From Ignisphaera aggregans DSM 17230 (GTDB taxonomy: Archaea; Thermoproteota; Thermoprotei_A; Sulfolobales; Ignisphaeraceae), in NCBI GenBank assembly GCA_000145985.1, contig CP002098.1:1282501-1346500 (forward strand): DNA of 64,000 nucleotides. Direction: 5' to 3'. Below, in pieces: positions 3,794 to 22,588 of this stretch (its first letter is position 1; each line of letters starts with the position of its first letter). A program made the translations under genes and the position numbers. The notes under the pieces are model-generated. The model was not told the origin of the DNA and made no database searches. It worked only from the letters and a program-made list of their open reading frames with translations.

Positions 3794-4051
3794 ATGGAAA
3801 GACAATGTAAATATATAGTAGAATTGATAGATATAGAGGGATACGCAATGATAGGAATGATAAAAGATTTAAGAATAGCTCAATGCAAAGGTGGTGCATA
3901 TATAGAGACAACGCTCAGTAATAATGAAAAACTATGCACTAGATGTATGGATGCCAAGACCATAGAATTAAGTAGAAAAGTTATAGACTTTTATGCAACA
4001 CTAAATAGAAAAGGGATGATGATTGGTATTACCACTGAGTCTATACAATGA
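3794..4051 (+). CDS. Small conserved hypothetical protein with three Cys
   Basis: An 85-residue protein starting with ATG 3 bases after argS, so it is almost certainly translated from the same message. Cysteines fall at the start and in LCTRCMD near the middle, so metal binding is possible. I do not recognise the family. Its 3' end overlaps a candidate C/D-box sRNA whose C' box spans the stop codon (4010-4075), so the last codons may be constrained by the RNA rather than by the protein. Confidence 0.65.
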   Translation: MERQCKYIVELIDIEGYAMIGMIKDLRIAQCKGGAYIETTLSNNEKLCTRCMDAKTIELSRKVIDFYATLNRKGMMIGITTESIQ

Positions 4052-21133: not shown

Positions 21134-21973
21134 CTAGTATATTCCTCCATAAATAAACGATAGATATTTATAGCCATTAAAGAACTTAGTTGTTACATTT
21201 CTATTCTTCAATATCGTATCAATATCTTCAGGCTTTAGCATCATAGGATTATATTTCTTTGAACCAAGAATGAAATTACATGAATAACCAAATGATGGAA
21301 TCCATACCTGATACTCTAGTACATAGTTAAATACAGATTTTACTGCTTGGTAAACATCCATATAAACATCTCTATAGAAGAAGCTTGAGCCTGCCTGTGT
21401 TACCATAACTCCATCATCTGTTAAAACACTGTATATCTTTCTATAGAAATCAGTTGTATATAGTTGTTTAGCTATGTCGCTTGAATAGGGATCTGTTAAA
21501 TCTAGTATAATTACATCGAAACTTCCACTCTCTGCTTCCTCAATAAACTTCTTTCCATCTTCTATTACTATCTTAGCACGTTTATCAAAGAATGACCCTT
21601 GATGAATTGGATATAGATATTTTTTAGAGAGTTCTACAACATCCTCATCTATATCAACCATAACAGCATTATTAACAGTATTATGTTTTAATACCTCTCG
21701 TAGAGCAGCCCCCTCTCCACCACCTATTATCAGTACTTTCATTGGATTTGGGTGAAGAACCATTGATGGATGAACAAGGCTTTCATGATAAATGAATTCA
21801 TCTGCTTGTGTACTTTGAATATATCCGTCAAGGATTAGACTTAGACCAAACTCCTCTATCTCAGCAATAATTATTTCTTGAAATTTTGATTTATGTACAA
21901 CATGTAATTCTTTTATCTTCATGATCATAGAGCTGCTTCTTCCAATTCCTTGAATTATTGTAACACCAAGCAT
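21134..21973 (-). CDS. speE: Spermidine synthase-like aminopropyltransferase
   Basis: A 279-residue aminopropyltransferase that moves the aminopropyl group of decarboxylated AdoMet to a polyamine. The family signature is clear: LILDGYIQSTQADEF, YHESLVHPSMVLH, LIIGGGEGAALREVL and the catalytic-region ILDLTDPYSSD. ATG 21973 is preferred because AAGGTG lies nine bases upstream; a GTG four codons earlier overlaps that site. With the agmatinase at 10690 it supports polyamine synthesis in this thermophile. Acceptor specificity (putrescine, spermidine, agmatine) cannot be read from the sequence. Confidence 0.92.
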   Translation of the reverse strand: MLGVTIIQGIGRSSSMIMKIKELHVVHKSKFQEIIIAEIEEFGLSLILDGYIQSTQADEFIYHESLVHPSMVLHPNPMKVLIIGGGEGAALREVLKHNTVNNAVMVDIDEDVVELSKKYLYPIHQGSFFDKRAKIVIEDGKKFIEEAESGSFDVIILDLTDPYSSDIAKQLYTTDFYRKIYSVLTDDGVMVTQAGSSFFYRDVYMDVYQAVKSVFNYVLEYQVWIPSFGYSCNFILGSKKYNPMMLKPEDIDTILKNRNVTTKFFNGYKYLSFIYGGIY

Positions 21974-22276
21974 TATTGGTTTCACCTTATACTTATCTAT
22001 AATCCATAGAGTTTTTAAGGTTAAAAGTAGAAGTTATCTTAATACAAATTGATGATGTGCATGCTAAATACTGAAAATATGATGATGGGCCAAAGCGCTG
22101 AACATGCTTATCGAGATAATCATTTTCAATATAACATTACTACATTTACTTATAACTCAATTCGTATGTAAATCATTCTACTAGGGTCACTTTTTATAAC
22201 ATTCTAGGTTCATAAATATTGAACATGGGTGTAGACAACGCTAGCCAAAGAGAAGCTAGTAAGGAATATAAGGAGA
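21974..22276. other. Intergenic region with sRNA candidate and no clear gene
   Basis: About 300 bases between speE and the next gene. It contains the candidate C/D sRNA at 22045-22106. TATA-like sequences (TTTTTATAAC near 22190-22200 and CATAAATATTGAAC near 22211) probably serve the next gene. A 29-codon frame from ATG 22225 overlaps the following gene's start out of frame and is not supported as a gene. Confidence 0.6.
22045..22106 (+). ncRNA. Candidate C/D-box guide sRNA
   Basis: Seen: box C TTGATGA 22049-22055 (first base off consensus), 15-nt guide, box D' CTGA 22071-22074, 4-nt spacer, box C' ATGATGA 22079-22085, 12-nt guide TGGGCCAAAGCG, box D CTGA 22098-22101. Three of the four boxes are exact and the 12-nt D guide is the normal length. 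It stands alone in a 300-base gap, downstream of a TATA-like A+T stretch near 22012-22027. Neither guide matches the 23S part in this window; targets would be in 16S, the 23S 5' half or tRNA. Confidence 0.7.
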
Positions 22277-22588
22277 ATGCTAAAGATAAGGGTAGATTTA
22301 AGAAGTTTTACTAATATTCGCAAAAGAGTGGGTAGTAAAGAATCTTCGTTGGAAGATACAGAGGTTTTAGTATTAGCGAATATACTCACTAATATGATTC
22401 TGATGGGTAAGGATAAAAGACGAAGGTGTATATTCTATAATCATGTTGACGGACTTTGTACATTCCTAAAATTTGATGTGGCAATACCTACACTAACTAT
22501 GGTGAAGGTAGGGGATGGATATAGAGTAAATGTTGCAAATAATCCAGAGGTATGTGCTGTATGTCCATACTGGAGGGAGAGAAGATAA
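22277..22588 (+). CDS. Small conserved Cys-rich protein
   Basis: A 103-residue basic protein with cysteines in RRRCIFYNHVDGLCTFL and PEVCAVCPYW. The four Cys could bind one metal or cluster. The CxFY-x6-C spacing resembles CPFYDRKKKFC in the 1557 protein. An AGGAG precedes ATG 22277 but is only one base away, so a slightly later start is possible. It is followed by the pyrimidine genes 110 bases on, across what looks like a promoter (ACTTATAACTTATAAT). No function recognised. Confidence 0.65.
   Translation: MLKIRVDLRSFTNIRKRVGSKESSLEDTEVLVLANILTNMILMGKDKRRRCIFYNHVDGLCTFLKFDVAIPTLTMVKVGDGYRVNVANNPEVCAVCPYWRERR

Follow-up and report, generated by a model that had tools for sequence, protein, structure and literature searches.

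A gap of 291 nt (positions 21986-22276) in the genome of Ignisphaera aggregans DSM 17230 (1,875,953 bases) separates the divergent speE gene from an ORF containing cysteine residues, and the boxes within it raise the question of whether a small RNA gene lies there and which nucleotide it might guide. Positions refer to the window, i.e. the whole stretch of 64,000 nt that was analyzed. The first-pass annotation had read the element as a free-standing C/D box sRNA, a reading supported by the box architecture, the synteny throughout the genus and a D half that is conserved in the order. Judged from its sequence and those of its relatives, the locus is a stand-alone box C/D sRNA gene of the archaeal type. 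We regard it as very likely that this independent sRNA guides Um34 formation in tRNA-Gln(UUG) with its D half and has a D' half for which no target is detected.

Architecture and genomic setting

The sRNA is alone in the gap, and its boxes follow the C-D'-C'-D order of box C/D sRNAs on the plus strand. The features of the locus are as follows.

21134..21985, minus strand: speE (spermidine synthase family; Pfam Spermine_synth, E-value 4.2e-52), divergent neighbor with conserved synteny
22012..22019, plus strand: possible TATA-like stretch TTTTTAAG (weakly suggested by the sequence)
22053..22101, plus strand: box C/D sRNA from C box to D box (sequence, relatives, relaxed Rfam matches)
22050-22055, plus strand: alternative C box TGATGA, overlapping TGATGT (sequence)
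22053..22058, plus strand: C box TGATGT, preferred register (12-nt spacing in relatives)
22059..22070, plus strand: D' guide GCATGCTAAATA, 12 nt, orphan (no target in tRNA and rRNA comparisons)
22071..22074, plus strand: D' box CTGA (sequence)
22075..22079, plus strand: D'-C' spacer AAATA, 5 nt (sequence)
22080..22085, plus strand: C' box TGATGA (sequence)
22086..22097, plus strand: D guide TGGGCCAAAGCG, 12 nt (D+2 to D+11 against tRNA-Gln(UUG) positions 31-40, D+5 opposite U34)
22098..22101, plus strand: D box CTGA (sequence)
22277..22588, plus strand: 103-aa ORF with cysteine residues, downstream neighbor

The boxes of the first-pass annotation (TGATGA at 22050-22055, CTGA at 22071-22074, TGATGA at 22080-22085 and CTGA at 22098-22101) are all present in the sequence. 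Of its guide lengths of 15 and 12 nt, the latter is exact for the D guide, and the former is better replaced by 12 nt. In the 11 loci with the Ignisphaera guide type, the distance from TGATGA, TGATGT or TGCTGA to the D' box is always 12 nt. Because of this spacing, TGATGT (22053-22058) is the preferred C box, which leaves 12 nt for the D' guide, and the longer first guide was probably a register slip. The four boxes agree with those of the class (C RUGAUGA, D' CUGA, C' UGAUGA, D CUGA), the preferred C box being TGATGT here and in several relatives. Both guide intervals (12 nt and 12 nt) agree with the approximately 10-12 nt expected for the class.

A TATA-like motif was present upstream of 20 of the 70 related loci, compared with 9.8% of random places; this weak enrichment, which covers the related loci and not the exact stretch TTTTTAAG, was not used as evidence. 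The 103-aa ORF gave no match in the Pfam search, and ORFs related to it are also found near the sRNA in relatives. Elsewhere in the window, positions 4017-4038 hold a further TGATGA-N12-CTGA half.

Proposed target of the D guide

The tRNA set of the own genome consisted of 43 genes found with the Rfam tRNA model, and the intron-containing ones were scanned unspliced. A first scan on 30 of the 43 genes gave no tRNA-Gln match; the Gln(UUG) match appeared when all 43 genes were included. The D guide forms 10 contiguous Watson-Crick base pairs (D+2 to D+11) with the anticodon region of tRNA-Gln(UUG), while the next best tRNA reaches 7. D+5 is opposite the wobble nucleotide U34, and D+1 is unpaired, which fits the variability of D+1 in relatives. 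In tRNA-Gln(CUG), C34 produces a mismatch at D+5, and the predicted duplex energies are -21.0 kcal/mol for Gln(UUG) and -17.3 kcal/mol for Gln(CUG). The complementarity to a stable RNA is thus at least 9 bp with D+5 included, and the predicted pairing discriminates Gln(UUG) from Gln(CUG). From this complementarity, we propose with good confidence that the D guide targets U34 of tRNA-Gln(UUG). The first-pass annotation had left the target open and had named a tRNA among the candidates, which was apt for the D guide; the D' guide is still without a target.

From the mechanism of the family, we infer that the locus is transcribed and that the RNA enters an sRNP which methylates U34 and so may affect decoding. 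The transcript would form kink-turn motifs bound by L7Ae, and the sRNP would recruit Nop5 and fibrillarin. The D half would put the 2'-hydroxyl of U34 into the fibrillarin active site to yield Um34; this methylation would make the wobble sugar more rigid and adjust how CAA and CAG are read.

Predicted pairing with the spliced tRNA in relatives

In seven genomes (G003, G008, G013, G018, G035, G038, and G052), the tRNA-Gln(UUG) gene contains an intron of 14 to 727 nt after position 37, and the guide pairs over 10-11 bp with the spliced tRNA compared with 7 with the unspliced form. For G020, with an intron that we placed between positions 32 and 33, the values are 10.5 (spliced) and 8 (unspliced). 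The complementarity across the splice junction in these eight genomes ties the guide to the tRNA, and it points to the spliced form as the likely substrate, at least in those eight. Pairing with the spliced tRNA was at least 10 in 20 of the 23 genomes that have both the guide and the gene (own genome included). The comparison was made without a tRNA-Gln(UUG) gene from G001 (where the gene fetched was that for CUG), G012 and G017.

The three exceptions (G025, G044, and G054) belong to one genus. Splicing at 37/38 would leave A38 and break the duplex at D+9, and the unspliced gene pairs at 10-10.5 compared with 7 after canonical splicing. At these loci (L393 in G025, L391 in G044, and L389 in G054), A38 is located in exon 2, the intron starts with UCC and the guide is invariant. 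Hypothetically, a splice point one base later in this genus would supply U38 and restore the pairing as G-U.

Conservation of the sRNA

The sRNA was present in all 11 genus genomes examined. It lies divergent from speE, within approximately 0.5 kb, in these 11 and in G013, G014, and G017; for G008, the synteny was taken from L266, which was equated with G008 by identical sRNA coordinates. G012, of the same family as I. aggregans, has the guide, with no speE on the stretch examined. The incomplete assemblies of G011, G015, and G016, from family f1, yielded no such sRNA. A lack of conservation in relatives was among the findings that would have counted against the first-pass annotation; the sRNA is in fact kept across the genus and its D core across the order.

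Exact copies of GGGCCAAAGCNCTGA were found in 45 of 398 genomes of the phylum, distributed as 36/71 in the own order (own genome included), 2/2 in the others of the class and 7/325 elsewhere, and its reversed control had one match among the matches listed. The distribution of the exact guide in the order is uneven, with 1/19 in f11 (which we take to be Sulfolobaceae), 0/2 in f6 and 0/3 in f8. The tRNA target core of the guide-bearing genomes is also present in G032 (f6) and in G046 and G055 (f11).

A scan of genome contigs for the guide plus part of the C' box gave 75 stretches, and 72 of them have Thermoproteota-type names. The remaining three, a Rufibacter, a Burkholderiaceae and a 'Euryarchaeota' record, are probably chance matches or misbinned, and the 72 loci treated below exclude them. 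Across these relatives, the D-guide core is unchanged while the D' half varies freely.

Two types of deviating loci were observed. In L364 (G022) and L365 (G051), from one genus, GGGGCCAAAGCG follows a C'-like box and AGGAGCC stands in place of the CTGA D box. In six metagenome records named Sulfolobales, Desulfurococcales or Thermoproteota (L263, L268, L274, L290, L291, and L295), the C box apparently overlaps the end of a presumed upstream gene that is similar in sequence in all six.

The D' half

The Ignisphaera D' guide had no target among the tRNAs of its own genome and no conserved site in the rRNA of relatives. A pairing with the D-arm of tRNA-Gln was inspected by eye and discarded for a mismatch at D'+4. 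The 72 loci were classified by the motif in their D' interval and not by a tree. The Ignisphaera clade (11/72) keeps CAYRCTAAAY, and 28/72 have a GGGGNCCTC-like motif in an interval that is 20-30 nt long where parsed and has a predicted hairpin fold. Among the rest, 24/72 have different intervals, short or long, and 9/72 were unclassified; the first interval in other lineages measures 9-11 or 20-32 nt. The same pair of the hairpin stem occurs as A-U and as C-G, e.g. in ACCTC/GAGGT and CCCTC/GAGGG. The GGGGNCCTC-like hairpin interval with changes on both sides of a pair was seen in L231, L238, L239, L273 and others, including G012, and the records with the hairpin are named Staphylothermus, Thermosphaera, Thermogladius, Desulfurococcaceae and others.

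No target was detected for the D' half, and other lineages have exchanged it, so this sRNA probably guides through its D half alone. A targetless half is usual for tRNA-targeting sRNAs, which commonly have one such guide according to a review (PMC7994747). It is possible, though we consider it doubtful, that the D' half is instead a working guide for 5S, SRP or RNase P RNA or an mRNA, so that both halves would guide in the Ignisphaera clade. The substitutions within CAYRCTAAAY in the clade are transitions (C/T and G/A), which would preserve pairing to a fixed target. Against such a target stand the replacement of the interval in other lineages and the lack of a conserved site in the own tRNAs and in the rRNA of relatives. 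The candidate D' target 10-mer GTTTAGYRTG also speaks against it: it occurs at about the control frequency in the own genome (6 compared with 5 for the control), although it is commoner in six relatives (9-14 compared with 3-7), and among 30 loci compared, homologous flanks were found only in the pair L171/L177.

Comparison with rRNA

The rRNA compared with the guides comprised the 3' 23S part in the window, the 16S rRNA of G003, G005, G008, and G009, and the 23S rRNA of G003, G005, and G009. Neither guide had a site common to all relatives in this set. In agreement with the first-pass annotation, no good pairing was found with the 23S part in the window.

Most archaeal C/D guides target rRNA; in Pyrobaculum, 56% target rRNA and 16% tRNA (PMC7994747). 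An rRNA might accordingly be the main target here and the tRNA-Gln match secondary. Indeed, the common form of the guide scores 8.5 in the 16S rRNA of three genus genomes (G005, G008, and G009) at GCTTTCGCCCC, with one internal mismatch, and 8.0 in the 23S rRNA of G005 and G009, also with an internal mismatch. The 16S site is absent from G003, whose sRNA is the closest to that of the window. With mismatches penalized, neither the common form nor the form in the window exceeds 6.0 in the 16S rRNA of G003; in its 23S rRNA they reach 7.0 and 8.0, respectively, compared with 10 contiguous base pairs for tRNA-Gln of the same genome. The tRNA match is, moreover, uninterrupted, includes the wobble nucleotide and, in eight genomes, is complete only after splicing. 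On this set of rRNAs, a primary rRNA target is improbable, and tRNA-Gln(UUG) remains the preferred target of the D guide. As for the D' guide in the window, an 8-bp 23S match at TATTTAGC in G005 and G009 was rejected; it is absent in G003, and the D' guide of G005 itself does not fit it.

Assignment to the box C/D class

The own genome contains 117 matches to TGATGA-N7-17-CTGA compared with 29 to the reversed-pattern control. The default Rfam search reported nothing at the sRNA. A relaxed search of the gap (E-values up to 10) gave 13 hits; 12 of them were C/D snoRNA families on the plus strand overlapping the element, and 10 of the 12 span nearly the whole element. All of the relaxed matches score below the gathering values, and most E-values are near or above 0.3, with three below 0.1. 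The best match was snoPyro_CD (RF00095; 25.6 bits, E-value 0.002, gathering score 45), and sR14 (RF01145) scored 19.4 bits (E-value 0.0034, gathering score 38). Both families resemble the sRNA in that the box C/D architecture aligns over its full length (22043-22104), and they differ from it as the sub-gathering scores indicate. TGATGA and CTGA are short and the reversed control still matches 29 times genome-wide, but the speE-adjacent orthologues in 11 genus genomes, the invariant D-guide core and the strong taxonomic restriction make both a decayed pseudogene and a fortuitous set of boxes in AT-rich DNA very improbable.

Candidate wobble guides in the genus

From the 117 matches in the own genome, 97 were used in a test against its tRNAs (100 were listed, and three overlapping duplicates were removed). 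Thirty-two of the 97 guides are 12 nt long, and four of these score at least 9.5 with D+5 on position 34. The four candidate wobble guides found among these 97 of 117 matches fit Gln(UUG), Lys(UUU), Ala(UGC), and Val(UAC). In 100 shuffles, the mean was 0.03 per 32 guides and the maximum was 1.

The genus was surveyed in 8 of the 11 genomes (without G003, G005, and G009), and the tRNAs of the own genome (G000) stood in for those of the others. With a score of at least 8.5 and D+5 on position 34, guides for Gln, Lys, and Val were found in 8/8 genomes each and for Ala in 7/8. Guides for Arg(UCU) (7/8) and, with G-U pairs, for Pro(UGG) (4/8) were also found, neither of them in the own genome. In 2/8, a guide fits C34 of a tRNA that contains an intron and whose anticodon was read as CAU. 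The search pattern in the genus preselected U33/Y34 (R-A at D+5/D+4), so these counts carry no inference of enrichment, and the statistics are those of the unselected test on 32 guides.

In G000, the guides of L306, L313, L135, and L302 fit position 34 of Val(UAC), Ala(UGC), Lys(UUU), and the intron-containing tRNA read as CAU. L134 and L135, which match the sRNA in part, were set aside as other wobble-guide sRNAs of the own genome. The tRNA-Gln(UUG) gene is followed, after approximately 50 nt, by a C/D sRNA-like element (G000:C1:115572-115593; L341, also L128). A half with the guide core GCCGGAAAT is found that close to a tRNA-Gln gene in 8/8 genus genomes (of the 11), and the neighbor in G001 is the CUG gene. 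The GCCGGAAAT half and tRNA-Gln likely constitute a tRNA-sRNA dicistron.

Taken as a whole, we lean slightly towards the view that methylation of the wobble U34 is a programmed, RNA-guided system in this archaeal lineage, in which sRNAs would serve at least five of the 13 tRNAs with U34 (those for Gln, Lys, Val, Ala, and Arg(UCU)) and perhaps a sixth, the more weakly matched Pro. The Gln guide would act on the spliced tRNA, and the sRNA of many relatives would have exchanged its second guide for a stem-loop of 20-30 nt, unlike the usual dual-guide form in archaea.

Relation to known systems and significance

In S. acidocaldarius, U34 of tRNA-Gln(UUG) is a predicted sRNA target whose methylation was detected by mass spectrometry, as described by Wolff et al. 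(2020; PMC7668247), where the prediction is attributed to the Lowe snoRNAdb and to Ziesche 2004. The predicted sRNA addresses the same tRNA and the same nucleotide as the Ignisphaera sRNA. The two are likened by target alone, and the S. acidocaldarius guide or box may differ, or the sRNA may be non-orthologous, as the exact pattern occurs in 1/19 genomes of f11. The same paper reports s2Um34 in Leu(UAG) of S. acidocaldarius and states that a few methylated tRNA nucleotides are still without an assigned sRNA or methyltransferase (PMC7668247).

For Pyrococcus, wobble-34 C/D sRNAs are described for tRNA-Leu(CAA), Leu(UAA), Met, and Trp (PMC7994747). These guides likewise address the first anticodon position, in other tRNAs, and the Trp guide is encoded in an intron whereas the Ignisphaera sRNA is a separate gene. 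The tRNA-targeting C/D sRNAs of Pyrobaculum (Lui et al. 2018, as cited in PMC7994747) direct one guide to a tRNA and have a targetless other guide. They belong to a different genus and share this form with the Ignisphaera sRNA by description alone. In Dennis et al. (2015; PMC4644070), two guide regions are given for each of 489 sRNAs, and tRNA matches were left uncompiled. A literature search conducted mostly without subscription papers yielded no publication on this sRNA gene or on the wobble-guide set. The type of target, Um34 of tRNA-Gln(UUG) with a predicted sRNA, is already known; the similar candidate wobble guides for other tRNAs in the genus are less expected.

The analysis assigns a specific target nucleotide to a candidate guide that had none, and offers a likely route for the wobble 2'-O-methylations observed by mass spectrometry in thermophilic archaea. 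The parts of specialist interest are the wobble-guide set and the single-guide hairpin form of relatives. If confirmed, the set would mean that in hyperthermophiles the decoding by U34 in several codon boxes is adjusted by guide RNAs as well as by protein enzymes.
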